This document shows, piece after piece, positions 7,981-62,563 of a DNA stretch of 64,000 nt. This stretch comes from Polaromonas sp. (GTDB lineage: Bacteria; Pseudomonadota; Gammaproteobacteria; Burkholderiales; Burkholderiaceae_C). The stretch's first letter is position 1. Each line of letters starts with the position of its first letter. The notes under the pieces are model-generated. The model was not told the origin of the DNA and ran no database searches. It was given only the letters and a program-made list of their open reading frames with translations. The translations under genes were made by a program, and so were the position numbers. Location: contig JAUXPP010000142.1 of assembly GCA_030683705.1 (NCBI GenBank), positions 1 to 64,000 of the forward strand, in the 5' to 3' direction.

Positions 7981-7983
7981 GGG

Positions 7984-8253
7984 TTACTCCTCTATTTCCT
8001 GGACACCGTGCTCGATGTCCAGATTGTTCATGTACCGGGCGTAGTACCAGATGATCAGGCAGTACACGACCAGCGAACCCTGTGCCCCCATCCAGAAACT
8101 GAAGGGCCAGCCAAAGAAATTGAAGTTCAGATCGCGTGCAAAGTAACCCACGACAAAGGTCACGACGAACCAGATCGCCAGCAGGACAGCTGTGATATTG
8201 AGGTTCTTCTGCCAATATCGTCGATGGTTTTCGGTCAGTTCCATGTTTCCCAT
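7984..8253 (-). CDS. DUF4212 domain protein (symporter small subunit), copy 1
   Basis: MGNMELTENHRRYWQKNLNITAVLLAIWFVVTFVVGYFARDLNFNFFGWPFSFWMGAQGSLVVY. Confidence 0.9.
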   Translation of the reverse strand: MGNMELTENHRRYWQKNLNITAVLLAIWFVVTFVVGYFARDLNFNFFGWPFSFWMGAQGSLVVYCLIIWYYARYMNNLDIEHGVQEIEE

Positions 8254-8293
8254 GATTTACCTACCTCCAACAAGAAAACCCTTACGGGCGTTT

Positions 8294-8338
8294 CGCGATC
8301 ACCACTTGTCTCTTATGTGGCCTGCCTGCCTGATCGCG
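8294..8338 (-). other. intercistronic stem-loop in symporter module, copy 1
   Basis: CGCGATCA...TGATCGCG perfect 8-bp arms with inner CCAC/GTGG; partly conserved at the same place in copy 2. Confidence 0.6.
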
Positions 8339-8404
8339 GCTTATCAACTCTGACCCCGACTTGCGCCGGGGTCATCCAGTGCCCGCTCAACTGGTTCACG
8401 AAGG

Positions 8405-8974
8405 TCACGCCGTGCGCAACCCGGTTTCGCGTTCCAGCTGGGCGGCCACCTTGGGCTCGAACCCCTTGAGATGGCGAATGATCTTCACCGCCTCATCAGG
8501 CTCTTGCCGATCTACATGAACCCGCGCCAGCTGATACCAGCCGAACGGGCTCATGGGCTGCAGTTCCGTGTTTTTCTTCAGGGCCACGACCGCTTCGTCA
8601 AAGCGGCGCTCCTGGATCAGCACCAGGGCCAGGCCGTACCAGGCGCGATCCATCTTGGGTTCGATCTCAAGGGCGCGGCGAAAGGCGGTTTCAGCCTGCT
8701 CGTGTTGACCGTTCTCCTCCAGCATGTAGCCGAGGTTGAACCAGCTGGCCGACAAATCAGGGTAATGGCGGGCCAGCAAGTCCTGGGTCACGATCGCCTC
8801 GGACTTGCGCCCCAGTTGTGACAGCAGATGTGCCCGGCTGGCCAGGGCGTAGCGGTCTTGAGGCTTCAGCCGCAGCATCTCGTCGAAGCGCACCAGGGCC
8901 TCTTGCCTGCGGTTGAAGAGCAGCAGCGCAATGGCCTGCAACTTGAGGAAAAGGTAGTTCGCCATCTGGCTCAT
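8405..8974 (-). CDS. tetratricopeptide repeat protein, copy 1
   Basis: MSQMANYLFLKLQAIALLLF... with TPR units (WFNLGYMLEENGQHEQAETAFRRALEIEPKMDRAWYGLALVLI). ATGA overlap with the upstream ORF supports this start. Confidence 0.85.
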   Translation of the reverse strand: MSQMANYLFLKLQAIALLLFNRRQEALVRFDEMLRLKPQDRYALASRAHLLSQLGRKSEAIVTQDLLARHYPDLSASWFNLGYMLEENGQHEQAETAFRRALEIEPKMDRAWYGLALVLIQERRFDEAVVALKKNTELQPMSPFGWYQLARVHVDRQEPDEAVKIIRHLKGFEPKVAAQLERETGLRTA

Positions 8975-9267
8975 TTGCACAGCTCCACGCCCATCTGAAG
9001 GCAAGTCTGGATCTTGTAAATCGTGGCACCGAGCCAGATGAACAGCAGGAGGAGAAAAGCCACCAGCGGTACATGCCGGTCCAGCACCAGTTTGGGTGTC
9101 AGCAGCCGAGCCACCGACACAAAAGGCCGACCAATGATCTGAAGGACCTGATAGAAGAGATTGCTCTCCTTCTTGGCCCCGGCCAACAAGCCCAGCAGCC
9201 ACTGGCCCAGCAAGGCCATGAGGGCAATTTCGGCAATCAGTTTGATAGCGGATGCGACAGCAAGCAT
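8971..9267 (-). CDS. conserved small membrane protein of symporter module, copy 1
   Basis: MLAVASAIKLIAEIALMALLGQWLLGLLAGAKKESNLFYQVLQIIGRPFV...; close homologue at 18002-18298. Confidence 0.82.
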   Translation of the reverse strand: MLAVASAIKLIAEIALMALLGQWLLGLLAGAKKESNLFYQVLQIIGRPFVSVARLLTPKLVLDRHVPLVAFLLLLFIWLGATIYKIQTCLQMGVELCK

Positions 9268-9356
9268 ATGGACCCGTCCATGCAGTTGAGTGCATTGTTG
9301 GCGTCGCGCTTACCGTTTTCTTACAAACCAACAGGAAAACTGACAACTTCGGGTCT

Positions 9357-9371
9357 AACCCTCTGAGGGTT
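9357..9371. promoter_or_regulatory. candidate operator palindrome upstream of module copy 1
   Basis: AACCCTC-T-GAGGGTT perfect inverted repeat; matching palindrome at 18384-18401 upstream of copy 2. Confidence 0.5.
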
Positions 9372-9713
9372 TTCCCGCGCTCATGCCGACCGGGGTATCT
9401 ATCGATGGCCGATAGGACAAGCGACTCGGCGCAATCCATCTGTGTGTCTGTCCTATGACCTAGTCGGTGCTTGCAAGAGCAAGGTGACGCCCCCATGACA
9501 TTCCAGGCGAAAAGCCTCAGCCAGAATTTGCCGGGACGTGTATCGACGGAGTCGCCTGGTCGTCATGCGGCACATGAAAAAAGCGGTCCCCTGTAACGGT
9601 CACCGGATTGGTCGGCTGACTTTTGATGCAATGCAGCAACAAGGGATGCGCAGCCGTTCTGGCTCATGCATAATGAACTCATGCCGTTGAAAACTGCAAC
9701 TGCGCTCCCCCAG

Positions 9714-9792: not shown

Positions 9793-11499
9793 ATGCCCCT
9801 GCCTCCCGCCCCCACCAAGCGCGCAGCCCTGCTGTCTCCCGACGCCTTTGATGCACCGGCCCGTAGCAAGCCCCGGTCATCGAGAGAATCAGCTACTGCC
9901 TTCGAAGCCCCCCCCGCCGACCACAAGCCGCAGGCCCGTGACCTGTTCGAGCATGGTGGCGGGGCCACGGCCGAAGTAGCCACCCCAGCGCAGCCGGTTC
10001 GCGGCAAAACCAGCCCCAGAACCTCCCGCAACAAGGCGAAGGCCACGCCGGTGAACACGGCACCAGCCACGCAAAGCCCGCCCCAACCGAAGAAAAACAA
10101 GTCCAGTGGGCCGAGCAAGCTGTTTGTGCTCGACACCAATGTGCTGATGCACGACCCGATGTGCCTGTTCCGCTTCGAGGAACACGACATCTTCCTGCCC
10201 ATGATCGTGCTGGAAGAACTCGACGGCCACAAGAAAGGCATGACCGAGGTCGCCCGCAACGCGCGCCAGACCAGCCGCATGCTCGACGGGCTGGCCGATG
10301 CCCACCAGGGCGCCGACATTGCGGCCGGCCTCAAGCTCGACAGCACCGGCCACCGCGAGGCCGGCGGCAAGCTGTTTTTCCAGACCCAGCCGCTGAACTA
10401 CACCCTGCCCACCAGCCTGCCGCAAGGCAAGGCGGACAACCAGATCCTGGGCGTGGTGGAGGCGCTGCGCCTGCAGTACGCACCGCGTGAAGTCGTGCTG
10501 GTGTCCAAGGACATCAACATGCGCGTCAAGGCCCGCGCCCTCGGCCTGGCCACCGACGACTACCAGAACGACAAGACGCTGGACGACGGCGATCTGCTCT
10601 ACGCCGGTTCGCTGGCGCTGCCGGCCGACTTCTGGACCACACACGGCCAGACCGTGGAAAGCTGGCAGCAGGGCCCGCACACCTTCTACCGCATCAATGG
10701 CCCGATCGTGCCCAGCCTGCTGATCAACCAGTTCGTCTACTTCGAAGCACCGGGCGAGCCCAGCCTGTACGCCCGCGTGTCCGAAATCCGCGGCAAGACC
10801 GCGGTGCTCAAGACACTGAAGGACTACACCCACCTCAAGAATTCCGTCTGGGGCGTGGCCGCGCGCAACCGCGAGCAGAACTTCGCCATGAACCTGCTGA
10901 TGGACCCGGAAGTGGACTTCGTGACGCTGACCGGCACCGCCGGCACCGGCAAGACGCTGATGGCGCTTGCCTCCGGCCTAACCCAGGTGCTGGACGACCG
11001 ACGCTACACCGAGATCATTGTCACCCGCGCCACGGTGAGCGTGGGCGAGGACATCGGTTTCCTGCCCGGCACCGAAGAAGAAAAGATGGGCCCCTGGATG
11101 GGCGCGCTTGACGACAACCTGGAAGTGCTTTCCAAGACCGACACCGGCGCCGGCGAATGGGGGCGAGCGGCCACCAGCGAGCTGATCCGCAGCCGCATCA
11201 AGATCAAGAGCATGAACTTCATGCGGGGGCGCACCTTCATGAACAAGTACGTCATCATCGACGAGGCGCAGAACCTGACGCCCAAGCAGATGAAGACCCT
11301 GATCACGCGCGCCGGCCCGGGCACCAAGATCATCTGCATGGGCAACTTGGCGCAGATCGACACGCCCTACCTGACCGAAGGATCGTCCGGTCTGACCTTC
11401 GCGGTGGACAAGTTCAAGGGCTGGCCGCACGGCGGCCACATCACGCTGGCGCGCGGCGAGCGCTCGCGCCTGGCGGACTTTGCCAGCGAAGTGCTATAA
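9793..11499 (+). CDS. PhoH family protein with N-terminal PIN domain
   Basis: FVLDTNVLMHDPMCLFRFEEHDIFLPMIVLEELDGHKKG (PIN), GTAGTGKTLMALASGL (Walker A), VIIDEAQNLTPKQMKTLITRAGPGTKIICMGN. Confidence 0.92.
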   Translation: MPLPPAPTKRAALLSPDAFDAPARSKPRSSRESATAFEAPPADHKPQARDLFEHGGGATAEVATPAQPVRGKTSPRTSRNKAKATPVNTAPATQSPPQPKKNKSSGPSKLFVLDTNVLMHDPMCLFRFEEHDIFLPMIVLEELDGHKKGMTEVARNARQTSRMLDGLADAHQGADIAAGLKLDSTGHREAGGKLFFQTQPLNYTLPTSLPQGKADNQILGVVEALRLQYAPREVVLVSKDINMRVKARALGLATDDYQNDKTLDDGDLLYAGSLALPADFWTTHGQTVESWQQGPHTFYRINGPIVPSLLINQFVYFEAPGEPSLYARVSEIRGKTAVLKTLKDYTHLKNSVWGVAARNREQNFAMNLLMDPEVDFVTLTGTAGTGKTLMALASGLTQVLDDRRYTEIIVTRATVSVGEDIGFLPGTEEEKMGPWMGALDDNLEVLSKTDTGAGEWGRAATSELIRSRIKIKSMNFMRGRTFMNKYVIIDEAQNLTPKQMKTLITRAGPGTKIICMGNLAQIDTPYLTEGSSGLTFAVDKFKGWPHGGHITLARGERSRLADFASEVL

Positions 11500-11509
11500 A
11501 AAGAATAGC
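11493..11509. repeat. palindromic element, hairpin-1-only copy at the phoH stop
   Basis: GCTATaaaaagaATAGC. Confidence 0.45.
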
Positions 11510-11525
11510 TAATCGCGCAATAAGA

Positions 11526-11550
11526 AAGGGGCCTGGAGCCCCTTTTTTTA
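11526..11550. terminator. bidirectional terminator between phoH and dnaB
   Basis: AAGGGGCCTGGAGCCCCTTTTTTTA between convergent genes. Confidence 0.8.
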
Positions 11551-14906: not shown

Positions 14907-17024
14907 TCAGGCGGCGCGCAGCGTTGGGTAACGCACGTGCTCGACCAGTTCCTGGATCTTGCGGCTAGGCGCAGGTGTCACCAGGCTGACCAGGATGATC
15001 ACGGCGAAGCCGATAGGCACACCGAAGATACCGGCCGAGATCGGCTGGATATCCCACCAGAGCTGGACCGGCGAGGTGATGCCGAACAGGCCGCGCATCC
15101 AGGGCTGGGTGGTGACCATGTAGAAGAACGTGGTTCCCAGACCGGCGATCATGCCCAGGGAGGCGGCGATACCGGTGGCACGTTTCCAGAAGATCCCCAG
15201 GGTCAGCGCCGGGAAGAACGCTGCTGCTGCGAACGAGAACGCCGCAGAGACCAGGAACAGAATGTCGGCCGGTTTCTGGGCAGCCACGTAAGCGGCAGCC
15301 AGCGCAACGATCAGCAGCAGGACCTTGGAGATGGTCACGCGGCGTGCAGTCGAAGCGTTCGGGTCAATCATTTTGTAGTACAGGTCATGGCTCAAGGCGT
15401 TGGCAATCGTCAGCAGCAGGCCGTCAGCAGTCGACAGCGCCGCAGCCAGACCGCCGGCAGCCACCAGGCCGGACACCACGTAAGGCAGGCCGCCAATCGC
15501 AGGCGCGGCCAGCACGATGATGTCGCCACCAATGGACATCTCGTTGAGCTGCAGCAAACCGTCCTTGTTGATGTCCACCACCGACAGCAGTGACGGATCG
15601 ACCTTGTTCCAGGCCCCTATCCAGTCCGGCAGCGCATTGAACGGCGTGCCCACCAGCAGCGTGAACACCTCGTATTTCACCAGCACAGCCAGGGCCGGCG
15701 CGGTGAAGTAGAGCAGGAAGATGAAGAACAGCGACCAGGTCACCGACTGCCGCGCTTCCTTCACGCTTGGGACGGTGTAGTAACGCATCAGGATGTGCGG
15801 CAACGCAGCGGTACCCACCATCAGGCAGAAAATCAGCGCCAGGAAGTTGCGACGCGAGACGTCGTAAGCCTTCTGGGCAGCTGCATCGCCATTCGGATCA
15901 CCGGCAAACTGCTGGGCGTGCGGTGGCATGCCGTTGAGCGGACGGGACTTGGCGTCAGCGCCAGCCTTGGCAGCGGTCCATGCCCGTGTGGCAGCGGCCG
16001 CATCTTTCGGCACGGCAGCCAGCGCTTTTTCAGCCGCAGTGATGTCCGACAGCGCGCCGTTGGCGGCTTTCAGGTCGGCCACGGCTTTTTCCGCAGCAGC
16101 CTTGTCGGCTGCCAGAGCCGTTGCCGGGTCTTTCAGCTTTTCAGCCAGGGCTGCAGAACGCTGCTTGAAGATGTCGCGCACGGCAACTTCCTTCGCGTCA
16201 ACAGTCAGCTCTTTTTCCTTGGCGGTCACCTTCTGCAGCTGGAAGCCGTAGATGGCTTGCGGGATCGGCACGTTGGTCTGCTTGACCGACAGCCACACCA
16301 CCGGGATCATGTAAGCCACGATCAGGATGATGTACTGGGCCACCTGCGTCCAGGTCACGGCACGCATGCCGCCCAGGAAGGAGCAAACCAGAATACCGCC
16401 CAGACCGAGGAAAATCCCGAGCTCGAAAGCCACGCCGGTCAGACGCGCAGTGATGATGCCGACGCCGTAAATCTGTGCCACCACATAGGTGAAGGAGCAC
16501 AGGATCGCAGCGACGATACCCAGGAAACGCGGCAGGTTGCCGCCATAACGTTCACCCAGAAAGTCGGGAATCGTGAACTGGCCGAACTTGCGCAGGTAGG
16601 GCGCGAGGAACAGCGCGACCAGGCAGTAACCGCCGGTCCAGCCCATGATGAAGGCCAGGCCGCTGTAACCCGTCAGGTAGAGCGTTCCGGCCATACCGAT
16701 GAAGGAAGCGGCGGACATCCAGTCGGCGCCGGTTGCCATGCCGTTGTAGACCGCCGGCACGCGGCGTCCGGCCACGTAATATTCGGCAGCGTCCGTCGTG
16801 CGGCTCATGATGCCGATACCGGCATACAGGCCGATGGTGGCCAGCAGGAAGATCAGACCGATCCACTGACGGGACAGGCCCATCTGCTCGAGAATGGCGA
16901 GCACCACCACGAAGACCAGAAAGCCCCCGGTGTACCACTTGTAGACCTTGCCGAGGCCCTTCTTGAAGGCAGCGTTGGATGCGGCAGTGTTGGTGCCGGC
17001 ATCATTACCAAAAATTCCAGCCAT
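14907..17024 (-). CDS. sodium:solute (acetate-type) symporter large subunit, VC_2705/ActP-like, copy 2
   Basis: 705 aa, same length and highly similar to 5863-7980. Confidence 0.92.
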   Translation of the reverse strand: MAGIFGNDAGTNTAASNAAFKKGLGKVYKWYTGGFLVFVVVLAILEQMGLSRQWIGLIFLLATIGLYAGIGIMSRTTDAAEYYVAGRRVPAVYNGMATGADWMSAASFIGMAGTLYLTGYSGLAFIMGWTGGYCLVALFLAPYLRKFGQFTIPDFLGERYGGNLPRFLGIVAAILCSFTYVVAQIYGVGIITARLTGVAFELGIFLGLGGILVCSFLGGMRAVTWTQVAQYIILIVAYMIPVVWLSVKQTNVPIPQAIYGFQLQKVTAKEKELTVDAKEVAVRDIFKQRSAALAEKLKDPATALAADKAAAEKAVADLKAANGALSDITAAEKALAAVPKDAAAATRAWTAAKAGADAKSRPLNGMPPHAQQFAGDPNGDAAAQKAYDVSRRNFLALIFCLMVGTAALPHILMRYYTVPSVKEARQSVTWSLFFIFLLYFTAPALAVLVKYEVFTLLVGTPFNALPDWIGAWNKVDPSLLSVVDINKDGLLQLNEMSIGGDIIVLAAPAIGGLPYVVSGLVAAGGLAAALSTADGLLLTIANALSHDLYYKMIDPNASTARRVTISKVLLLIVALAAAYVAAQKPADILFLVSAAFSFAAAAFFPALTLGIFWKRATGIAASLGMIAGLGTTFFYMVTTQPWMRGLFGITSPVQLWWDIQPISAGIFGVPIGFAVIILVSLVTPAPSRKIQELVEHVRYPTLRAA

Positions 17025-17026
17025 GA

Positions 17027-17287
17027 TTATTCCTCGCTTTCCTGGACGCCGTGCTCAATATCGAGCTTGCCCATGTACCAGGCGTAATACCCGATGATGG
17101 CCACGTAAATCACCAAAGCCCCCTGCGCACCCATCCAGAAACTGAAGGGCCAGCCGAAGAAATTGAAGCTCAATTCGCGTGCGTAATAACTCACGACGAA
17201 CGTCACGACGAACCAGATCACCAGCAGGATTGCCGTGATATTCAGGTTCTTTCGCCAGTAACGGCGATGGTTGTCAGTCAACTGCAT
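17027..17287 (-). CDS. DUF4212 domain protein (symporter small subunit), copy 2
   Basis: MQLTDNHRRYWRKNLNITAILLVIWFVVTFVVSYYARELSFNFFGWPFSFWMGAQGALVIY. Confidence 0.9.
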   Translation of the reverse strand: MQLTDNHRRYWRKNLNITAILLVIWFVVTFVVSYYARELSFNFFGWPFSFWMGAQGALVIYVAIIGYYAWYMGKLDIEHGVQESEE

Positions 17288-17426
17288 AACACTTGCCTCC
17301 ATCAACAACACCCTTGCGGGCACATCACGATCACCACCACCCCTGGCGTGGCCTGCAAGCCGGATCGCGTCTTATAAGCCTGGGCTCAGACCCTGGCCAT
17401 CAAATACCCGCCCCGCTGGTTCCCGG

Positions 17427-18005
17427 TCAGGACGACTGAGCTGCGCTCAGTCCCGTCTCGCGCTCCAGCTGGGCGGCCACTTTAGGCTCAAACCGTTTGA
17501 GGTGGCGAATGACCTTCACCGCCTCATCAGGGTCTTGCCTGTCTACATGAACCCGCGCAAGCTGATACCAGCCGAACGGGCTCATGGGTTGCAGTTCTGT
17601 GTTTTTCTTGAGCGCCTGCACCGCTTCGTCGAAACGGCGGTCACGGATCAGCAGCAGCGCCAGGCCATACCAGGCGCGGTCCATCTTGGGCTCGATCTCC
17701 AGGGCGCGGCGGAAGGCCGGCTCGGAATCGGCATGGCCTCCGGCGTCTTCCAGCATGTAAGCGAGGTTGAACCAGGCCGCGGCGGTGTCGGGGAAACGCG
17801 CCACCAGTTCGCGCAGGGCCGCGATGGCGCCCGGCTTGTCGCCCAGCTGGGCCAGCACATGCGCCCTGCTCGCCAGCGCGTAGCGGTCGCCGGGGCGAAC
17901 CTGCAGCATCTGGGTGAACTTTTCCAGGGCCGCAGCCTGTTTGCCGAACACCAGCAGCACCAGCGCCTGCAGCTTCAGATACCAGTAAGCCAGGGTATTG
18001 CTCAT
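17427..18005 (-). CDS. tetratricopeptide repeat protein, copy 2
   Basis: MSNTLAYWYLKLQALVLLVFGKQ...; TPR units homologous to 8405-8974; ATGA overlap with the upstream ORF. Confidence 0.85.
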   Translation of the reverse strand: MSNTLAYWYLKLQALVLLVFGKQAAALEKFTQMLQVRPGDRYALASRAHVLAQLGDKPGAIAALRELVARFPDTAAAWFNLAYMLEDAGGHADSEPAFRRALEIEPKMDRAWYGLALLLIRDRRFDEAVQALKKNTELQPMSPFGWYQLARVHVDRQDPDEAVKVIRHLKRFEPKVAAQLERETGLSAAQSS

Positions 18006-18298
18006 TTGCACAACTCCACGCCGATTTCGAGGCAGGTGCGGATTCTCATGATGGTCGCAGCCAGCCAGATGAACAGCAGCAACAAAAACGCCACGAGCGG
18101 AACGTGGCGGTCGATGATTTGTTTGGGGGTGATGAAACGTGTGGCGACCACAAACGGTTTGCCGACGATCTGCAGGATCTGGTAGAACAGATTGGTGTCT
18201 TTTTTGGCGCCGGCCAGCAGGCCCAGCACCCATTGCCCGAACAGCGCGAGCAAGGCGATCTCGGCTATCAGTTTGATCGTGGAAACGGTAAAAAGCAT
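18002..18298 (-). CDS. conserved small membrane protein of symporter module, copy 2
   Basis: MLFTVSTIKLIAEIALLALFGQWVLGLLAGAKKDTNLFYQILQIVGKPFV...; homologue of 8971-9267. Confidence 0.82.
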   Translation of the reverse strand: MLFTVSTIKLIAEIALLALFGQWVLGLLAGAKKDTNLFYQILQIVGKPFVVATRFITPKQIIDRHVPLVAFLLLLFIWLAATIMRIRTCLEIGVELCK

Positions 18299-18383
18299 AG
18301 GGCCTTCGAAACAATGGCTTGATTGTTTCCCCGGCGCTTACCGCCTTCTTACAAATCCTGACGAAACCCGCCGGACCTAGCTG

Positions 18384-28576: not shown

Positions 28577-28686
28577 CACTCAAACGAGAATAATTCGCAT
28601 TTGTTGCGTTAAGATGCCGCACCCGCGAGCCGACATGCCCAGCCATGTGAAGCCAGCCAGCAACCTGACTGGACCCTGCCTCACAT
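28577..28686 (+). promoter_or_regulatory. Fur-type promoter region P1 upstream of the TonB-dependent receptor
   Basis: CTCAAACGAGAATAATTCGCATTTGTTGCGTTAAGATGCCGCACCCG; near-duplicate at 30887-30997. Confidence 0.6.
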
Positions 28687-30871
28687 GTCTACCCCATCCC
28701 GTTTCCTTGCATCAACAACCCCTTTGTCCCCCGTCAGCCGGGCGTCATCAGCTACTAAACTAATAGCAAAATTCAGCCTCACCCCGCTCGCGCTGTGTGC
28801 CGCGCAACTGGTCGGTGCCCAGGTCCTGCCGGACATCACCATACGCGCGGATACCGAACAGGGCTACTCCCCGGCCAGCAGCAGCAGCGCCACCAAAAGC
28901 AGCGCGCCGCTGCGCGATATTCCGCAAACCGTCAACGTGGTCCCCGGCCAGCTGCTGCGCGACCAGGCGGCGCGCTCCATGGAAGATGCGCTGCGCAACG
29001 TGCCCGGCGTGGCGGCCAGCCATGGCGATGGCCAGCGCGACCAGGTGATGATCCGCGGCTTCACGGCGATTGCCGACCAGTTTTCCGACGGCCTGCGCGA
29101 TGACGCCCTGTACTTCCGCGACCTGTCCAACGTCGAGCGCGTCGAGGTGCTCAAGGGCCCTTCTGCCGTGCTGTACGGCCGGGGTTCCTCGGGCGGCCTG
29201 ATCAACCGCATCACCAAAAAACCGAAATTCGGCGAAACCTCGGGCGAGGCCGCGCTGATCCTGGGCAGCAACCAGCTCAGGCGCGTGGAAGCCGACGTGA
29301 ACCTGCCGCTGGGTGAAGCCGCGGCCTTCCGCCTGAACGCGGCGCGCGAGGACTCCGGCAGCTACCGCGACCAGCAATTCGTGGACCGCTACAGCTTTGC
29401 GCCGTCGCTGGCGCTCAAATTCAGCAGCCAGACGTCGCTGTTGCTGCAATACACCAGGGCGCGCGACCAGCGTGTGACGGACTTCGGCATCCCGGCACTC
29501 AACGGCCGCCCGGTGGATGTGCCCGCCGGCACCTACTACGGCTCGGGCAATGCCCGGCGCGACGACACCAGCACCAGCCGGGTCGACACCTACACCGCCA
29601 CCCTGAACCACAGCTTCAACGATGTGTTGAGCGTGCGCAACACCACGCGCTACTACAGCTACGAGCTGGACCGTTACAACACCCTGCCCAGCGGCACAAC
29701 CGACCCGGTGGCGCTGACCATCGGGCTGACCCGCAGCGCCGTCTTCCGCGACGAATCCGGCTGGTTCAACCAGACCGATGTCACCTACAAAAACACGCTG
29801 GGCGGCCTCAAGCAGGAATGGCTGTTCGGCCTGGAAATGGGCCAGCAGAAGCGCCGCTCCGAATCGATCTCGGCCGGCAACGTGGCGCGCGTGTCCATCT
29901 TCAACCCGGGCCTGGTGGCGGTACCGGCATTCAGCGCAGCCAACCTGGCTGCCGACAGCGCCATCCCCAACCACACCACCCAGGATGTGCTGGGGGTGTA
30001 CCTGCAGGACCAGGTCACGCTGGCGAAAAACTGGAAGGTGCTGGCAGGCATACGCTACGACGAGTTCAAGCAGTCCACCACCTTCGAGCGCAAGCTCGCG
30101 CCGCTGGCCCGCACCGACCGCAGCTTCAGCCCGCGCGCCGGCCTGGTGTGGCAGCCCACCGAGGCGCAGTCGCATTACCTCTCGTACAGCCGCTCGTTCC
30201 AGCCCTCGGCCGAGACCTTCGCCCTGGCCGGCAGCAATGTGGGCAACGAGCCGGAAATCACCCGCAACGTCGAGATCGGCAGCAAGCTCGGTTTCCTGGA
30301 CGGCGCGCTCAGCGTCACGGCCGCCCTGTTCAACTTGCAGCGCAGCAACATCAAGAACACCGACCCGGCCAACCCCAGCCAGCAGATCAACGTGGGCACG
30401 CAGCGCACCAACGGGCTGGAACTCACGGCCAGCGGCCGCCTGCCGGGCCGCTGGGACGTGAGCGCGGGTTACGCCTACCTGGACGGCAAAATGGTGGAGT
30501 CCGTGGCACGCGTCAGCTCGCTGCAGTTGCCGGTCGTTTCGGTGCCGTCGCTGGGCAAGGTGCCGGCGCTGACGCCACGCCACTCGGCCTCGTTCTGGGC
30601 CATGAAAGACCTGGGCAAGGGCTTCAGCCTGGGTGGCGGCCTCAACTACGTGGGCGAACGTTTCGCTTCGCTGACCAACCTCGTCGTCCTGCCGGCTTAC
30701 CTGACCGGTGACCTCGCCGGCAGCTACCGGACCGGCCGCTACGAATTCGGCGTGAACATCAAAAACGTCACCGACAAAAAATACATCGTCTCCAGCCACG
30801 GCAGCAACGACAACCTGATTCTGCCGGGCGCGCCGCGTGAGTTGCAGCTGAGCATGCGCGTCAGATTCTGA
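28685..30871 (+). CDS. TonB-dependent siderophore receptor
   Basis: Plug: IPQTVNVVPGQLLRDQAARSMEDALRNVPGVAASHGDGQRDQVMIRGF; ends in aromatic LQLSMRVRF. Confidence 0.93.
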   Translation: MSTPSRFLASTTPLSPVSRASSATKLIAKFSLTPLALCAAQLVGAQVLPDITIRADTEQGYSPASSSSATKSSAPLRDIPQTVNVVPGQLLRDQAARSMEDALRNVPGVAASHGDGQRDQVMIRGFTAIADQFSDGLRDDALYFRDLSNVERVEVLKGPSAVLYGRGSSGGLINRITKKPKFGETSGEAALILGSNQLRRVEADVNLPLGEAAAFRLNAAREDSGSYRDQQFVDRYSFAPSLALKFSSQTSLLLQYTRARDQRVTDFGIPALNGRPVDVPAGTYYGSGNARRDDTSTSRVDTYTATLNHSFNDVLSVRNTTRYYSYELDRYNTLPSGTTDPVALTIGLTRSAVFRDESGWFNQTDVTYKNTLGGLKQEWLFGLEMGQQKRRSESISAGNVARVSIFNPGLVAVPAFSAANLAADSAIPNHTTQDVLGVYLQDQVTLAKNWKVLAGIRYDEFKQSTTFERKLAPLARTDRSFSPRAGLVWQPTEAQSHYLSYSRSFQPSAETFALAGSNVGNEPEITRNVEIGSKLGFLDGALSVTAALFNLQRSNIKNTDPANPSQQINVGTQRTNGLELTASGRLPGRWDVSAGYAYLDGKMVESVARVSSLQLPVVSVPSLGKVPALTPRHSASFWAMKDLGKGFSLGGGLNYVGERFASLTNLVVLPAYLTGDLAGSYRTGRYEFGVNIKNVTDKKYIVSSHGSNDNLILPGAPRELQLSMRVRF
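28730..28767 (-). repeat. palindromic element inside the TonB-dependent receptor CDS
   Basis: ...CGGGCGTCATCAGCTACTAAACTAATAGC. Confidence 0.6.
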
Positions 30872-30997: not shown

Positions 30998-31130
30998 GCC
31001 TGCCTTTTTTCCCGCTTCACAGCCAAAAGCGTCTCCAGCCCCCATCTATCCTGCGTGGGCAGCTAGCAAATTTGTAGCAAACCGCGTCTTCAGCCGACCC
31101 GGCAGTTGCAGTGCGCAGCTGCGGACTTGA
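30996..31130 (+). pseudogene. 44-aa leader ORF, possible remnant of a duplicated receptor N-terminus
   Basis: MPAFFPASQPKASPAPIYPAWAASKFVANRVFSRPGSCSAQLRT; start context and position relative to P2 parallel those of the receptor relative to P1. Confidence 0.35.
31031..31078 (-). repeat. palindromic element, intergenic/leader
   Basis: GTCTCCAGCCCCCATCTATCCTGCGTGGGCAGCTAGCAAATTTGTAGC. Confidence 0.7.
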
Positions 31131-34910: not shown

Positions 34911-35222
34911 ATGTCCCTCATCAAGATCCCAGGCCCGGGTTTGCATGCCCCACCCGCACCCATGACCCCTGCCACCATGCCGCTGACCGACCTGGCGCCC
35001 AACCGGGCCAGCACCATCGTGAGCCTCAGCGCAGCGCAAGGTGAAGACGGCAGTTCCAGCCTGCTGCAACGTCTGGCCGAACTCGGCTTCATGACCGGCG
35101 AAACCATCAGTGTGTTGCGGCGCGGCCCCGGTGGGCGCGAACCAATCGCGGTGCAAGTCGGTGACACCCTGTTCGCGCTGCGCCACCACGAGGCGAGCTG
35201 CATCCAGGTGAGCGCAGCATGA
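34911..35222 (+). CDS. feoA: FeoA family ferrous iron transport protein
   Basis: LTDLAPNRASTIVSL...LLQRLAELGFMTGETISVLRRGPGGREPIAVQVGDTLFALRHHEASCIQV. Confidence 0.9.
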   Translation: MSLIKIPGPGLHAPPAPMTPATMPLTDLAPNRASTIVSLSAAQGEDGSSSLLQRLAELGFMTGETISVLRRGPGGREPIAVQVGDTLFALRHHEASCIQVSAA

Positions 35223-37174
35223 GTATCGCTGCCCCCACCTCCCCCGCCACCATGCCGCGCATCGTCCTGGTCGGCAACCCGAACTGCGGCAAGACCGCGC
35301 TGTTCAACCTGCTCACCGGCGCACGCCAGAAGGTCGCCAACTATGCCGGCGTGACGGTCGAACGCAAGGAAGGCCGCACCCGCCTGCCCGACGGCCGCGA
35401 ACTGGCCGTGATGGACCTGCCGGGCGCCTACAGCCTGAACCCGGCAACCGCCGACGAAACCGTCACCCACGACGTGCTCATGGGCCTGCGCGCGGGCGAG
35501 GAGCGCCCCGACGGCATCATCGCGGTGGTCGACGCGACCAATTTGCGCATGAATTTGCGCCTGGTGCTGCAGCTGCGTGCGCTGGGCCGGCCCCTGGTGC
35601 TGGCGCTCAACATGATGGACGTCGCGCGTGCGCGCGGCCTGCAGATCGACATCAACCGGCTGTCGGCCGAGCTCGGCATGCCGGTGATAGCCACCGTGGC
35701 GGTGCACAACCCCTGGTTCGCCGCCTGGCGCGGCAAGGGCGCGGGCAGCGGCCGTGAGGCGCTGCTGCAGGCGGCGCAGCAGGCCTTTTACGGCGCCGAT
35801 CACCAGCCTTTTGTGCCGCCAGTGCCCGTCCCGCAAGCGCAAGCAGCTATCAATTCAATAGCAACCGGCGCACCCGACATGGCCGCGCTGCAGACCCAGG
35901 TGCGCGCCATCCTGGCCGCGGCCGTGCCGAATGCGGGCCAGGTCCAGCGTTTCAACCACCGCGTCGATGCGCTGGTGATGCACCCGGTGGCCGGCCTGCT
36001 GCTGCTGGCCACCGTGCTGTTCCTGATCTTCCAGGCGGTGTTTGCCTGGGCCAATTTGCCGATGGACATCATCAAGGACGCGGTGGCCTGGACCGGCACC
36101 GCCATCAATGACAACCTGGCGCCCGGGCTGCTGCAAAGCCTGCTGGTCGACGGCATCGTGGCCGGCGTGGGCGGCGTGCTGGTGTTCCTGCCGCAGATCG
36201 TGATCCTGTTCTTCTTCATCCTGCTGCTGGAAGACTCGGGTTATTTGCCGCGCGCCGCCTTCCTGCTGGACAACGTCATGGGCAAGGTCGGCCTGTCGGG
36301 CCGCGCCTTCATCCCGCTGCTGTCGAGTTTTGCCTGCGCGATTCCCGGCATCATGGCGACCCGCACGATTCCGCACTGGCGCGACCGGCTGGCCACCATC
36401 ATGATCGCGCCGCTGATGACCTGTTCGGCCCGCCTGCCGCTGTATGCCTTGCTGATCGGCGCCTTCATCCCGGACCGCAGCGTCGGTGTCTTCAACCTGC
36501 AGGGCCTGACGCTGTTTGCGCTGTACCTGGCGGGCATTGTGTCGGCGATGGCGGTGGCCTGGGTGTTCAAGCGCAGCTGGTCGAAAAGCAGCTACCAGCC
36601 GTTGATGCTGGAGCTGCCGCCCTACCGCCTGCCGAACCTGCGCAACCTGCTGCTGGGCCTGTGGCAACGTGTGGAGATTTTCCTGCACCGCGTGGGCGGC
36701 ATCATTTTTGCGCTGATGGTGCTGCTGTGGTTTCTCTCGACCTTTCCCGGCCCGCCCGAGGGCACGCCAGGTCCGGCGATCCAGTACAGCTTCGCCGGCA
36801 TGATAGGCAAGGCGCTGGAAGTCGTGTTTGCCCCCATCGGTTTCAACTGGCAGATCTCGATCGCGCTGGTACCCGGCATGGCGGCGCGCGAAGTCGCGGT
36901 CGGCGCACTCGGCACGGTGTATGCGCTGTCGGCTGCCGGTGACGATACGGCGGTGGCCCTGACGCCGCTGATCGCGCAAAGCTGGTCGCTGGCGACCGCC
37001 TATTCGCTGCTGGCCTGGTATGTGTTTGCGCCGCAATGTATCTCGACGCTGGCCGTGGTCAAGCGCGAGACCAACTCCTGGCGCTACCCGCTGCTGATGG
37101 CCGGCTACCTGTTTGCGCTGGCCTATGCCGCATCGTTTGTCACCTACCGCGCCGTGCTGGCGCTGACGGCATGA
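35219..37174 (+). CDS. feoB: ferrous iron transport protein B
   Basis: LVGNPNCGKTALFNLLTGARQKVANYAGVTVERKEG; MDLPGAYSL; GRAFIPLLSSFACAIPGIMATRTI. Confidence 0.96.
   Translation: MSIAAPTSPATMPRIVLVGNPNCGKTALFNLLTGARQKVANYAGVTVERKEGRTRLPDGRELAVMDLPGAYSLNPATADETVTHDVLMGLRAGEERPDGIIAVVDATNLRMNLRLVLQLRALGRPLVLALNMMDVARARGLQIDINRLSAELGMPVIATVAVHNPWFAAWRGKGAGSGREALLQAAQQAFYGADHQPFVPPVPVPQAQAAINSIATGAPDMAALQTQVRAILAAAVPNAGQVQRFNHRVDALVMHPVAGLLLLATVLFLIFQAVFAWANLPMDIIKDAVAWTGTAINDNLAPGLLQSLLVDGIVAGVGGVLVFLPQIVILFFFILLLEDSGYLPRAAFLLDNVMGKVGLSGRAFIPLLSSFACAIPGIMATRTIPHWRDRLATIMIAPLMTCSARLPLYALLIGAFIPDRSVGVFNLQGLTLFALYLAGIVSAMAVAWVFKRSWSKSSYQPLMLELPPYRLPNLRNLLLGLWQRVEIFLHRVGGIIFALMVLLWFLSTFPGPPEGTPGPAIQYSFAGMIGKALEVVFAPIGFNWQISIALVPGMAAREVAVGALGTVYALSAAGDDTAVALTPLIAQSWSLATAYSLLAWYVFAPQCISTLAVVKRETNSWRYPLLMAGYLFALAYAASFVTYRAVLALTA
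35825..35864 (-). repeat. palindromic element inside feoB
   Basis: CCCGTCCCGCAAGCGCAAGCAGCTATCAATTCAATAGCAA. Confidence 0.7.
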
Positions 37175-37437: not shown

Positions 37438-37457
37438 TTCCATTTATCAGCCAGGTA

Positions 37458-37507
37458 CGGCTTCAGCCCATATTCCACCTGCGTAAGCAGCTCTCTTTTT
37501 GATAGCA
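37458..37507 (-). repeat. palindromic element, intergenic
   Basis: CGGCTTCAGCCCATATTCCACCTGCGTAAGCAGCTCTCTTTTTGATAGCA. Confidence 0.7.
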
Positions 37508-37545
37508 ACTTTCATCCAGCTTTTTACCCAACGGAGACCTCTGCC

Positions 37546-41260: not shown

Positions 41261-41316
41261 TCAAATCGGGCGCTAGCCCTTGGTTGACAAGCGCAGGCAG
41301 CTATCGATTCGATAGC
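41261..41316 (-). repeat. two-hairpin palindromic element, intergenic
   Basis: TCAAATCGGGCGCTAGCCCTTGGTTGACAAGCGCAGGCAGCTATCGATTCGATAGC. Confidence 0.8.
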
Positions 41317-42694: not shown

Positions 42695-44185
42695 TCAATC
42701 AAGGTTCAGGTCAAAAACCGCGATGGACTCGACGTGCGCCGTGTGCGGGAACATGTTGACCACGCCGGCCGCGCTGCAGCGGTAACCCGCGTCATTGACC
42801 AGCACACCGGCATCGCGTGCCAGCGTCGCCGGGTTGCAGCTCACATACACGATGCGCCGGGGCGGTGTCCAGTCACCGATCTGCAGGTTCTGCTGGCCGC
42901 CCGCGTCGTCGCAGGGCACGCCGGTGAGCGACTGCTGGTGCAGCGCCGCCAGCGCCTTGAACAGCTCGAACGCGCCCTCGCGCGGCGGATCGACCAGCCA
43001 CTTGTCGGCCGCGCCGTCCGCCACCAGCATGCCGGGGGTCATCTCGAACAGGTTGCGCGCTACGAATTTTGTAGCTGCCAACGCTTGTCCCACAGGCCTT
43101 GCCGCCTGATTCGATGCGTAATTTTCGCGCGAGCGGGCGACCAGGACCTCGCTGCCCTCTATGCCCAGTACCTCGCGCGCCTGGGTCGCCAGCGGCAGGG
43201 TGAAGTTGCCGAGGCCGCAGAACCAGTCGATCACGCGTTCAGCGCGCTGCACGTCGAGCAGGCGCAGCGCGCGCGATACCAGCACCTGGTTGATCTGCGG
43301 GTTGACCTGGGTGAAATCGGTCGGGCGAAAAGGCATGCTGATGCCGTAGGCCGGCAACGCATAGGCCAGTTGCTGCGCGGGATCACTCACCGCATCGAGC
43401 AAGGTCACGGTGTCGGGCCCGCCCGACTGCAGCCACCACTGCAGGCCGGGATGGGCCGCCGCAAAGGCGCGCAGCTTCGCGACATCACCCTCGGACAACG
43501 GCTCCATGTGGCGCAGCACCAAGGCCGTGATGGCGTCGCCGCAGGCCAGCTCGATCTGCGGCAGGGTTTCCTTGGCATCCATCGCGCCTATCAGCGCACG
43601 CAGCGGCAGCAGCAGCTCGCTCACGTGTTGCGGCAATACATGGCATTCACGGATGTCGGCGACATAGCCGCTTTTGCGCTCGTGAAAACCGACCAGCACC
43701 TCGCCTTTCTTGCGCACGAAGCGCACCGACAGGCGCGCGCGGTAGCGGTAGTTCCAGGCCGGGCCCTCGATAGGCCGCATGATGTTGCCGGCCTTGAGCT
43801 TGCCGAGGTGCCAGAGGTTGTCTTCCAGCACACGCTGCTTGACCGCCACCTGCGCGCCCACATGCAGGTGCTGCATCTTGCAGCCGCCGCAGGCGCCGGT
43901 GTGCAGGCCGAAATGCGGGCACTGCGGGCGCACGCGCTGCGAGGACTCGCGCAGCACCGCCATCAGCGTGGCCTTTTCAAACGTTGGCTTCTTGCGGTAG
44001 ACGCTGGCGCTGACGCGTTCAAACGGCAGCGCGCCGTCGATGAACACCACCTTGCCATCCTCACGGTGGGCGATGCCCTGGGCCTCGATGTCGAGCGACT
44101 CGACGTCGAGGATGTCGGGCGGGTAGTCCACCGGCGGCGTGGCAGGTGCGGGGTGTTTTGTTTTGTTCTGGTGTCGTCTGGCCAT
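42695..44185 (-). CDS. rlmD: 23S rRNA (uracil(1939)-C(5))-methyltransferase
   Basis: [20 protein letters not shown] Fe-S motif; [41 protein letters not shown]. Confidence 0.95.
43059..43114 (+). repeat. palindromic element inside rlmD
   Basis: GCTACGAATTTTGTAGCTGCCAACGCTTGTCCCACAGGCCTTGCCGCCTGATTCGA. Confidence 0.7.
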
Positions 44186-44249: not shown

Positions 44250-44669
44250 ATGGAACTGCGCATCTGCATCGACGTGAACGACATGGAACGCGCCATTGCG
44301 TTCTACACCGAAGGACTGGGGCTGCGATGTGGCCGGCGCTTCCAGAGCAGCTTCACCGAAATCCTGGGCGCCAGCAGCCCCATCGATTTGTTGCTCAATG
44401 CGGCCGGCACCCGGCCCGTCACCGGCAGCGACACGCAACGCAGCTACCAGCGCCACTGGACGCCGGTGCATCTGGACTTTGTGGTGGACGACATCGACGC
44501 CGCGGTCACGCGCCTGGTGGAACACGGCGCTGTGCTCGAAATGCCGGTGAATCAGCGCGCCTGGGGCCGCATCGCCGGCCTGGCCGACCCCTTCGGCCAC
44601 GGCATCGACCTGCTGCAGTTCACCGGCCGCGGTTACGACGCGTTGTTGCAGCCGGCCGAGCCACTATGA
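44250..44669 (+). CDS. VOC family protein (glyoxalase-like)
   Basis: MELRICIDVNDMERAIAFYTEGLGLRCGRRF...HLDFVVDDIDAAVTRLVEHGAVLEMPVNQRAWGRIAGLADPFGHGIDLLQ. Confidence 0.88.
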   Translation: MELRICIDVNDMERAIAFYTEGLGLRCGRRFQSSFTEILGASSPIDLLLNAAGTRPVTGSDTQRSYQRHWTPVHLDFVVDDIDAAVTRLVEHGAVLEMPVNQRAWGRIAGLADPFGHGIDLLQFTGRGYDALLQPAEPL

Positions 44670-44719
44670 AATTTATAGCTGCTCACGCTTGCCGGACAAG
44701 GGCTGGAGGCTGATTTAAC
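44664..44719 (+). repeat. two-hairpin palindromic element overlapping the VOC gene stop
   Basis: CTATGAAATTTATAGCTGCTCACGCTTGCCGGACAAGGGCTGGAGGCTGATTTAAC. Confidence 0.8.
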
Positions 44720-45781: not shown

Positions 45782-46612
45782 TTAGCTGGTGCCCGATTTT
45801 AAAGGGACAAAGTGCACGGCCTCCAGAACCGTCTGCGTCACGCCCTGCGCGGTCTTGTCGAGTACCACCAGTGCCTGGGCGCCGCCGGCCATGTGCATGG
45901 GCGCGACCAGGCGGCCGCCGACGGCCAGTTGTTCCACCCAGGCCGGCGGAATCGCCTCACCGCCGGCCGCCGCGATGATGGCCGCATACGGCGCGCCCTT
46001 GGCGTAACCCACCATGCCGTCGCCGAACAGCAAATGCACATTGGCCAGCCGGAAGGCGCGCAGGTTCTCGCGCGCCTTGTCGTGCAGCCCGCGCAGGCGC
46101 TCGATGCTGTAGACCTCGCTGGCGAGCTGGCCCAGCACCGCCGCCTGGTAGCCGCAGCCGGTGCCGATCTCCAGCACCCGGCCCAGTTTGCCGGCCGGGC
46201 TGCCCGCCCCCTGGCGCAGCAACTCCAGCATGCGTGCCACCACATTGGGCTTGGAAATCGTCTGGCCCAGGCCGATCGGCAGGCTGGTGTCTTCGTAGGC
46301 CTGGTTGACCAGAGCGGTATCGACAAACCGGTGCCGCTCCACATGCCCCATCGCGGCCAGCACCTGCGCATCGGAAATGCCCTGCCCGGCGAGTTTTTGC
46401 ACCATGCGCGCGCGCACCGCACGGGAATCCAGGCCGACGCCGCTCGAGACCACGGTCTTGGCCGGCGTTTTCATGTCAAAAATACCTGTAGCCCTTTCTG
46501 GATGAGCGCGGCCAGCTACTTTTTTGGTAGCAGATGGCGTGCCGGCGTCAGGCTCCAGCCGGACCGGAAAGCCCGGGCGTTGGGCCGCTGTGGGCTTGGC
46601 CGGCGGCTTCAT
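45782..46612 (-). CDS. pcm: protein-L-isoaspartate O-methyltransferase
   Basis: VLEIGTGCGYQAAVLGQLASEVYSIERLRGL; start could be internal (MKTPAKTVV...). Confidence 0.92.
   Translation of the reverse strand: MKPPAKPTAAQRPGFPVRLEPDAGTPSATKKVAGRAHPERATGIFDMKTPAKTVVSSGVGLDSRAVRARMVQKLAGQGISDAQVLAAMGHVERHRFVDTALVNQAYEDTSLPIGLGQTISKPNVVARMLELLRQGAGSPAGKLGRVLEIGTGCGYQAAVLGQLASEVYSIERLRGLHDKARENLRAFRLANVHLLFGDGMVGYAKGAPYAAIIAAAGGEAIPPAWVEQLAVGGRLVAPMHMAGGAQALVVLDKTAQGVTQTVLEAVHFVPLKSGTS
46476..46531 (-). repeat. palindromic element inside the pcm 5' region
   Basis: Minus strand GCTACCAAAAAAGTAGCTGGCCGCGCTCATCCAGAAAGGGCTACAGGTATTTTTGA. Confidence 0.7.
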
Positions 46613-56606: not shown

Positions 56607-58520
56607 CTAGTGCAAGGCGCGGTAGATTTCATCGGCCAGCTCGCGCGAGATACCCTCGACGGTGGCGATGTCTTCGGCACTCGCCGACGTCACCCCGCGG
56701 ATCCCGCCGAAACGCTGCAGCAGGCTGGCGCGTTTTTTCGGGCCTATGCCGGCGATGTCCTCGAGACGGCTGGCGCCGACCCGCACCTTGGCGCGTTTGG
56801 CGCGCATGCCGGTGATGGCGAAACGGTGCGCCTCGTCGCGGATCTGGGCAATCAGCATCAGCGCGGCCGAATCCCGGCCGAGATACACCTTGTCACGGCC
56901 GTCGGCAAACACCAGTTCCTCGAGGCCAACCTTGCGGCCCTCGCCTTTTTCGACGCCGGCGATCAGTCCCAGGTCCAGGCCGAGTTCCTCGAACACTTCG
57001 CGCGCCATGGACACCTGGCCCTTGCCGCCATCCACCAGCACCAGGTCAGGCAAGCGGGCCGTGTTGTTGCGCGCGGCTTCGGCGAGTTTGCTGTAGCGGC
57101 GCATCAGCACCTGCCGCATCGCGGCATAGTCATCGCCCGGCGTGATGCCGTCGATGTTGTAGCGCCGGTATTCGGCGCTCTGCATCTTGTGGCCATGGAA
57201 CACCACACATGAAGCCTGGGTCGATTCGCCGGCCGTGTGCGAGATATCGAAACACTCGATGCGCAGTGCATCCAGGTTGTCGAGCGAGAGCTCCAGCGCC
57301 TCGGCCAGCGCCCGCGTGCGCGCCTGCTGGGAGCCCTGCTCTGCCAGCAGCCGGGCCAGCTGCAGATCGGCGTTTTTCTGCGCCATCTCCAGCCAGATGC
57401 GGCGCTGCTCGCGCGGCTGATGGATGGCCGTGACCTTGTTGCCGGTCTGCATGATCAGCGCGGCGATCAGTGCCTTGTCCACCGGCTCGCTGCACACCAG
57501 CACCGGGGGCACCGGCACACCGACGTAGTGCTGGGCAATAAAAGCCTCGAGCACCAGCGCTTCCAGGCTTTTGGGCCGGCCCGCTGCCACGGCGGCACCG
57601 GTCTCCATGCTGTCCTCGTCGAGCCCGGCCAGGTCGGCCGCATGCTCCACATGGGTCGGGAAGTAGGGCCGGTCGCCCAGGTGCCGGCCACCGCGCACCA
57701 TGGCCAGGTTCACGCAGGCCTTGCCACCGTGCACCTTGACCGCAAGGATGTCCACATCCTTGTCGCCGCCGGTTTCCATGGACTGCTGGTGCAGCACCTT
57801 GGACAGCGCCGACATCTGGTTGCGCAGTTCCGCCGCCTGTTCGAATTCGAGCCTTTCCGCATGGCCGCGCATCTGCTGTTCGAGCTCGGTCAGGATTTCT
57901 TCGGCCTGCCCTTGCAAAAAACGCTCGGCATTGGCGACATCCAGCGCGTACTGCTCCGGCGTCACATGGCCCACACAGGGCGCGGAGCAGCGCTTGATCT
58001 GGTACAGCAGGCAGGGCCGGGTGCGGTTGTTGAACACCGTGTCCTCGCAGGTGCGCAGCTTGAACACCTTTTGCAGCAGCAAGATCGTTTCCTTGACCGC
58101 CCAGGCGCTGGGATAAGGTCCGAAATAGCGGTGTTTTTTCTCCACCGCGCCGCGGTAATAGGCCACGCGCGGAAAGTCGTGCGACGCCAGCTTCAGGTAG
58201 GGGTAGCTCTTGTCGTCGCGGAACAGGATGTTGAACCGCGGGTTCAGCGTCTTGATCAGGTTGTTTTCCAGCAGCAGCGCTTCGGCCTCGGAGCGCACCA
58301 CCGTGGTCTCCATGCGGACGATCTTCGTGACCATGTGGCCGATGCGCGTGCCACCGTGGTTTTTCTGGAAGTAGCTGGAGACGCGTTTTTTCAGGTCGCG
58401 CGCCTTGCCGACGTAAAGCACGCCGCCTTCGGCATCGAAATAGCGATAGACGCCCGGCATGGCCGGCAGGGCCGCGACTTCGCTGAGCAACTGGGGATCG
58501 AATTCGTGGGGAGCGGTCAT
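56607..58520 (-). CDS. uvrC: excinuclease ABC subunit C
   Basis: [56 protein letters not shown]-terminal HhH. Start at 58520 preferred over the 1035-aa extended ORF. Confidence 0.95.
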
Positions 58521-58559
58521 GGTGATGCGGAAAGTACCCGTATTGTGGACAATCCGGAA

Positions 58560-59672
58560 ATGAATCGCAGCCGGCAGTGGGACATATTTTGCAAAGTCAT
58601 CGACAACCATGGCGACATCGGTGTCTGCTGGCGGCTCAGCACCGACCTGGCCGCGCGTGGACATCAGGTGCGGCTGTGGGTCGATGATGCCTCGGCGCTG
58701 GCCTGGATGGCGCCGCCAGGGCATGCAGGCGTCACCGTGCTGCCCTGGCTGGAGCCACTGGGCCTGAACCTGCTGCGCCTGGACAGCGCGCCCTGCGAGG
58801 TGCTGGTGGAAGCCTTCGGCTGCGAGATTGCTCCTGAATTCATAGCTGCCTGTGCAGACCAGCACAGGGCTGGAGCCCCAAATCCCGTATGGATCAACCT
58901 CGAATACCTGTCGGCCGAGCCTTATGTGGAGCGTAACCACGCCCTGCCCTCGCTGGTACAGCACGGCCCCGCTGCCGGCTGGACCAAATGGTTTTTCTAC
59001 CCTGGCTTCACGCCGGCCACCGGCGGCCTGCTGCGCGAGCCCGGCCTGCTGCAGCGGCAGGCGGATTTCGACCGGTCGGCCTGGCTGGACGCTCAGCACA
59101 TCGCCTGGGCTGGCGAAAAGCTGGTGGGACTGTTCTGTTATGAGCCCCCCGCCCTGCCCGCCCTGCTGGAACAATTCGCGCGCGCGGGACTCCACGGCGA
59201 GCCCGTGCGGCTGCTGGTCGCCGCCGGCCGCGCCGCCGCCGCGGTACGCGCCGCCCTCGTGAATGAAAAAGGGCTGCAGCCGATACTGGACAAACACCAG
59301 TTGCTGTCCATAACCTACCTGCCGCTGTTGCCCCAAACCGATTTTGACCACCTGCTGTGGGCCTGCGACCTCAATTTCGTGCGCGGTGAAGACTCGGTGG
59401 TGCGGGCTCTTTGGGCCGGCAAACCGCTGGTCTGGCAAATTTATCCGCAGGACGACCAGGCGCACCAGGCCAAGTTGCAGGCCTTCCTGGACCGGCTGGA
59501 CGCGCCGGCCTCGCTGCGCGCCTTTCACCAGGCCTGGAACGGCCAGCACCCGCATCTGCCGGCCATGGACACGCAGGGATGGTCTGATGGCCTGCGTGCA
59601 GCCAGGCAGGCGCTGCTGGGCCAGCCGGACCTGTGCAGCCAGTTGCTCGGGTTTGTGGCAAAAAAAAGCTAA
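58560..59672 (+). CDS. earP: EF-P arginine rhamnosyltransferase EarP
   Basis: [83 protein letters not shown]; adjacent to efp. Confidence 0.94.
58830..58885 (+). repeat. two-hairpin palindromic element inside earP
   Basis: GCTCCTGAATTCATAGCTGCCTGTGCAGACCAGCACAGGGCTGGAGCCCCAAATCC. Confidence 0.75.
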
Positions 59673-59777
59673 AATCAGGGGCTTTGCGGAGAGTCCCGAC
59701 CGGGCCGGCCGCACAACCCGCTGCAGAACCAGCCGTCCAGGCCGGCGTTTCGCGGCCCAGACTCAAGTAGAACTGTT

Positions 59778-62504: not shown

Positions 62505-62563
62505 GTCAAATCCGGCTCCAGCCCTTACGCGACAAGCGTAAGCAGCTATCAAATCAATAGCAT
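62505..62563 (-). repeat. two-hairpin palindromic element, most complete copy
   Basis: GTCAAATCCGGCTCCAGCCCTTACGCGACAAGCGTAAGCAGCTATCAAATCAATAGCAT. Confidence 0.85.

Follow-up and report, generated by a model that had tools for sequence, protein, structure and literature searches.

The short peptides that a sequence-only reading had noticed in three unrelated proteins of a Polaromonas sp. and had taken for insertions are, to judge from how their codons change between relatives, by-products of a DNA signal that appears to be held at the level of DNA, also within essential genes such as leuS. The signal itself is probably a genome-wide double-stranded DNA recognition sequence that would be read by a trans-acting DNA-binding machinery, its sequence being maintained copy by copy. 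The earlier reading is supported insofar as one repeat indeed codes within many unrelated proteins in a strongly preferred orientation and phase; clean insertion is the part without support.

Within the window, i.e. the whole stretch of 64,000 nucleotides that was analysed, one repeat of about 58 bp occurs in frame in the genes for FeoB, RlmD and a TonB-dependent receptor, once in each and in identical orientation and phase. Re-reading of the window bears out the original description of the three peptides as to both orientation and phase; the coordinates given then mark a real repeat, of which they take in just the 3' portion, and each full copy measures 58 bp. The 58-column consensus derived from the aligned copies, TCAAATCGGCCTCCAGCCCTTGTCCGACAAGCGTAAGCAGCTATCAAATCAATAGCA, combines a dyad at one end, GCTAT-N7-ATAGC, with a tract of A or T at the opposite end; a weaker signal extends by some 8 bp further left of this core, and the information falls close to zero beyond. 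The element is 58–66 bp long, with 53% GC, dispersed singly, and carries about 56 bits (56.5 over the 58 columns). The core pattern alone matches the window 14 times, as compared to 0.18 matches expected from shuffling, and the iterated 58-column matrix (cut-off of at least 20 bits, built from the same genome that was scanned) finds 13 copies, four of them inside genes. In order of position, with the scores in the closest relative (G004) and in the relatives G008 and G012 where the copy is found there, they are:

11491–11548, minus strand: copy close to a gene end, 40 bits
21871–21928, minus strand: copy close to a gene end, 64 bits
21984–22041, plus strand: intergenic copy, 39 bits
28712–28769, plus strand: copy at the 5' end of the TonB-dependent receptor gene (28685–30871), phase 0, 36 bits (46 bits in G004, 44 bits in G012)
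31023–31080, plus strand: intergenic copy, 51 bits
35807–35864, plus strand: copy in feoB (35219–37174), phase 0, encoding PFVPPVPVPQAQAAINSIAT, 56 bits (42 bits in G008, at the same place and phase)
37451–37508, plus strand: intergenic copy, 54 bits
41261–41318, plus strand: intergenic copy, 73 bits (59 bits in G004)
43057–43114, minus strand: copy in rlmD (42695–44185, minus), phase 0, 48 bits (44 bits in G004)
44661–44718, minus strand: copy overlapping a gene 3' end, 71 bits (53 bits in G004)
46476–46533, plus strand: intergenic copy, 53 bits (43 bits in G004)
58828–58885, minus strand: copy in the N-terminal extension of a UvrC-containing ORF (56607–59714, minus), phase 1, 45 bits (42.8 bits in G004)
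62506–62563, plus strand: intergenic copy, the strongest in the window, 78 bits

In FeoB the element follows the G domain and precedes the Gate domain (Pfam FeoB_N at 14–164 and Gate at 320–416). In the receptor gene (window 28685–28830), the element codons directly precede the hydrophobic core of the signal peptide (ATKLIAK), an arrangement that is kept in G004 and G012. The UvrC-containing ORF is 1035 aa long, with UvrC at about 411–1035 and an N-terminal extension of some 400 aa that has no Pfam match. The stop codons previously seen in intergenic copies are confirmed: TAA in columns 34–36 of the copies at 62506 and 37451, and TGA in columns 25–27 of the copy at 41261. An Rfam scan of the window returned tRNAs only. 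Apart from the element, the window contains a duplicated gene cluster (5863–9496 vs 14907–18314, about 9 kb apart) with 71–83% identity over several kilobases, comprising 705-aa ORFs and their neighbours.

The element is abundant far beyond the window. In 1.90 Mb of the same genome (46% sampled, in tiles that were partly selected because of their matches), 317 copies score at least 20 bits with the 58-column matrix, whereas reversed-sequence controls of 1.9 Mb yield none; scaled up from the contigs that were retrieved wholly or for the most part, this makes about 670 copies in this Comamonadaceae-type genome. By the gene calls of a simple, home-made caller, 182 of the 317 copies are intergenic, although intergenic DNA makes up only 10.7% of the sequence, 77 (24%) are contained entirely within genes and 58 extend across a gene end. 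Their density decreases from convergent gaps (67 copies in 29 kb) through tandem (89 in 103 kb) to divergent ones (21 in 53 kb), a preference that can perhaps be ascribed to mere tolerance. There is no strand preference, with 47 vs 42 copies in tandem gaps, and the spacing is fairly even, roughly one copy per 6 kb (mean 5.7 kb, CV 0.84, 5% quantile 825 bp, minimum 111 bp).

Such a pattern of 56 bits could not appear by chance at hundreds of places, so that some dispersal must have occurred, and an old mobile element of the MITE, REP or RPE kind, with its in-frame copies surviving as peptide insertions, has to be considered. This scenario draws further on the net gains of about 9–11 aa in RlmD, gph and PurL, but it is improbable, given that near-identical copies are absent: the paralogous copies are star-like, with a mean identity of 59% and a maximum of 86%. 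Moreover, 44 of the 49 copies that have matching DNA in G004 share their orthologous place with it, single copies are under column-specific constraint (see below), and no clear association with the Y1 transposase family is seen. Nor are clean insertions found. An inserted 58-bp element should lengthen the protein by 19–20 aa, which is never reached in the proteins compared (0 to about +11 aa). Relative to element-free relatives, the net length difference is about zero in Nif3 and UbiA, 0 to +4 in LeuS, +3 in an AMP-ligase (where the element is absent from G004 and G012), +9 in RlmD and about +10 or +11 in gph and PurL. In Nif3 the element occupies a segment of about equal length in E. coli YbgI, and in LeuS one of nearly equal length in the gonococcal enzyme; match lengths suggest that LeuS, Nif3 and UbiA are similarly long in element-free relatives.

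The segments are lineage-specific when set against other families, as in RlmD, which is 8 or 9 aa longer than E. coli RumA and the proteins of other families, and the 8-residue gap of RumA (1uwv) lies within the element-encoded stretch; this gain corresponds to less than half an element. The occurrence of the same residues in orthologues without the repeat DNA, which by the earlier reasoning would mark such a segment as ancestral, is found in part: RlmD of such relatives keeps a similar RPAL[A/C][P/A]T[R/K]FVARNLFE. When our genome (G000) is compared to G004, none of the few differences inspected is a clean empty site, the intergenic ones being too scrambled to read; the coding difference is a replacement of 49 bp vs 58 bp, and no terminal repeats are seen at the element ends. 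At the place where PurL of G000 (C92:9951) has the element, PurL of G004 (L277, G004:C3, about 67191–67682) has a different in-frame repeat-like segment, LTPALSPEGRGSNPLALPLPLGEGRGEG, and PurL of the other relatives has neither.

The 77 internal copies, whose host proteins include LeuS, Nif3, UbiA, PurL and ComEC, are distributed over the reading frames in a highly uneven manner. In the same orientation as the gene, 34 copies are in phase 0, 8 in phase 1 and 3 in phase 2; in the opposite orientation, 22 are in phase 1, 7 in phase 0 and 3 in phase 2. From the openness of the reading frames, 14.2 copies would be expected in same-orientation phase 0 and 23.4 in opposite-orientation phase 1; same-orientation phase 1, although more frequently open than phase 0, is under-used (8 copies vs 19.1 expected). 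The overall preference over openness is strong (p=5.6e-10), so that stop codons alone are an insufficient explanation. What had been proposed as a common phase is therefore a strong preference (34 of 77) and not a rule, since a fourth in-gene copy in the window, the one at 58828–58885 that had been missed, uses a different frame. The dyad is translated as Ala-x-x-x-Ile/Val-Ala in either of the two preferred readings, which is the register described earlier.

The frame preference beyond openness could be taken as a sign of selection on the peptide itself, with A-I-x-x-I-A as a recurring functional motif. We regard this as hardly credible, and as the main cause it is refuted: most copies are intergenic, the peptide drifts fast in the low-information columns, with differences at 40%, and rare codons are fixed at those synonymous positions which make the DNA pattern complete. 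Indeed, GCT is used in 34 of the 34 phase-0 copies and ATA or GTA in 33 of the 34, while these codons have a usage of 3–6% in this genome; this codon choice agrees with the DNA pattern, rather than the peptide, being held. Internal copies also score lower on average than intergenic ones (49.5 vs 58.7 bits), as a trade-off against protein constraint would give. The copy of the element in comEC itself (L241, G000:C85, 10214–12838) is in frame and in the opposite orientation.

The level at which constraint acts can be judged column by column from one close pair of genomes, G000 and G004, with 25 coding pairs of copies. High-information columns differ at 13.5% in coding and 14.6% in other copies, low-information columns at 40% and 45%, respectively, and the substitution rate correlates with the information content among the paralogues at -0.71 (coding) and -0.76 (other); columns 40–42, 54 and 56 are unchanged across all 25 coding pairs. 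In ordinary genes of the same pair, four-fold sites differ at 29.8%, first codon positions at 9.7% and second positions at 6.2%, so that the low-information columns of in-gene copies change more often than four-fold sites and far more often than codon positions 1 and 2. The G004 copies retain 47 bits, as compared to 8.5 bits if the same changes are placed randomly. This column-wise pattern implies that the peptide is nearly free whereas the DNA pattern is held, within genes and outside them.

Is the pattern read as DNA or as RNA? An RNA element, such as a terminator, attenuator or processing signal, would fit the position just 3' of stop codons, the enrichment in convergent gaps and the capacity of the dyad to form a short stem. 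We consider it very unlikely, because the stem shows no compensatory changes, an orientation bias is absent in tandem gaps, and 77 copies reside inside genes in both orientations. At columns 43/53, AT is found in 216 copies, CT in 46 and AG in 42, with double changes fewer than expected, and RNAalifold finds only 7 pairs, nearly all of them invariant and without covariation. Each half-site of the dyad tolerates the same changes, A to C and T to C, irrespective of the other, and copies in which both are weakened are scarce (p=0.001). As the two half-sites lack compensatory pairing, double-stranded recognition is likelier than a hairpin, and their behaviour would be the signature of sites bound by a dimer rather than of paired bases in a stem. 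At the other end of the element, the left A-tract is frequently exchanged for a T-tract, which suggests reading of DNA shape; in columns 3–6 of all copies taken together, either AAA or TTT stands as a block and mixed forms are few, this being the strongest dependence between columns.

The distribution of the element across genomes is patchy. Sequences of Acidovorax, Comamonas, Curvibacter, Giesbergeria, Ottowia and Rhodoferax match the core exactly. The element is present in 18 of 40 genera of the family to which our genome belongs, in several of them with more than 100 copies (lower bounds), and in 3 of 120 genomes of the order, including our own. Within the genus, among drafts of varying completeness, the copy number ranges from at least 150 down to 0, and sparse species are sisters to rich ones. 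The sparse species keep the RlmD segment, most of them without its DNA pattern. Such a coordinated, genome-wide loss suggests dependence on a trans-acting factor. No recogniser has emerged. As trans factors, RAYT and comEC do not separate element-rich from element-free genomes: RAYT (PF01797, Y1 transposase family) is usually present in one copy in element-rich and element-free genomes alike, and comEC is present in 35 of 35 genomes of both kinds. Searches of 72,556 plasmids and 50,697 phages yield next to no copies. A phage or plasmid origin was rejected, with only two Comamonadaceae plasmids matching over most of the length, one of these matches overlapping the 3' end of cobN.

Taken together, the abundance and the constraint point to a protein machinery that reads the element, and we infer as its recogniser a dimeric protein that may be part of a larger complex. 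This trans-acting DNA-binding machinery would recognise the 58-bp sequence, each copy of which would be held individually; within genes, copies would be admitted solely where the protein segment is under weak constraint and the register is the open, benign one, Ala-x-x-x-Ile/Val-Ala, that is common to both strands of the dyad. As to the role, we lean towards a site of chromosome organisation or topology that is under selection. The main rival is a drive like that of uptake sequences, whereby the element would mark self DNA for natural transformation, and biased uptake followed by recombination would keep and spread good copies in place. Hundreds of evenly spread copies in both orientations, the orientation and frame preference in genes, as reported for uptake sequences (PMC2346458), the in-place origin without length change, the near absence from plasmids and phages and the patchy erosion among sister species all fit such a drive, and to hold some 27 columns in hundreds of copies that seem redundant would ask much of selection, which favours the drive further. 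Still, at about 58 bp and 56 bits, the element far exceeds the known uptake motifs of 10–12 bp, and we consider the drive a rather unlikely, if serious, alternative; comEC, found in element-rich and element-free genomes alike, speaks neither for nor against it.

It is conceivable, at somewhat short of even chances, that the element is a new, approximately 60-bp self-marking or chromosome-organising signal of Comamonadaceae, with its own putative recogniser, held base by base at hundreds of sites, within essential genes such as leuS too, and lost wholesale along with that recogniser. If so, a family of bacteria common in soil and water accepts rare codons, and loops that drift in essential proteins, as the price of keeping hundreds of long signals, which would imply a strong DNA-reading machinery, and sister species with and without the signal would offer a clean natural experiment for finding the recogniser. 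A warning follows as well: peptide "insertions" may be shadows of a constraint on DNA.

Among known systems, MITEs differ in having recent near-identical copies. The parallel with Rickettsia palindromic elements that had been drawn earlier extends to in-frame occurrence within unrelated proteins (77 internal copies, 34 of them in one phase), and is superficial, as constraint acts in our case on the DNA pattern and not on the peptide; besides, clean insertion and compensatory self-complementarity are absent, and most copies are intergenic. With REP/BIME and their RAYTs the element shares the hundreds of copies and the location at 3' ends and in convergent gaps, but REP/BIME are extragenic, whereas 77 of 317 element copies lie in genes, a compensatory hairpin is absent, and the Y1 transposase is not discriminating. 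In the literature we found no description of the element apart from that of the BRE (Hot et al. 2011, PMC3110155), likewise dispersed in Betaproteobacteria, including Comamonadaceae, and mostly intergenic with some copies wholly within coding sequences; the BRE is 75–91 bp long, has 69% GC, forms tandem VNTR arrays and does not exceed 29 copies per genome, so that our single, 58–66-bp, 53% GC element with its approximately 670 copies is set apart from it, by description and not by sequence. In its sequence behaviour the element resembles the USS of Pasteurellaceae and the DUS of Neisseria, with hundreds of dispersed copies in both orientations, a preferred in-gene orientation and frame and evolution in place; unlike these motifs of 10–12 bp, with their short core of about 9–12 bp, the element spans some 58 bp, carries 56 bits and occurs about once per 6 kb.
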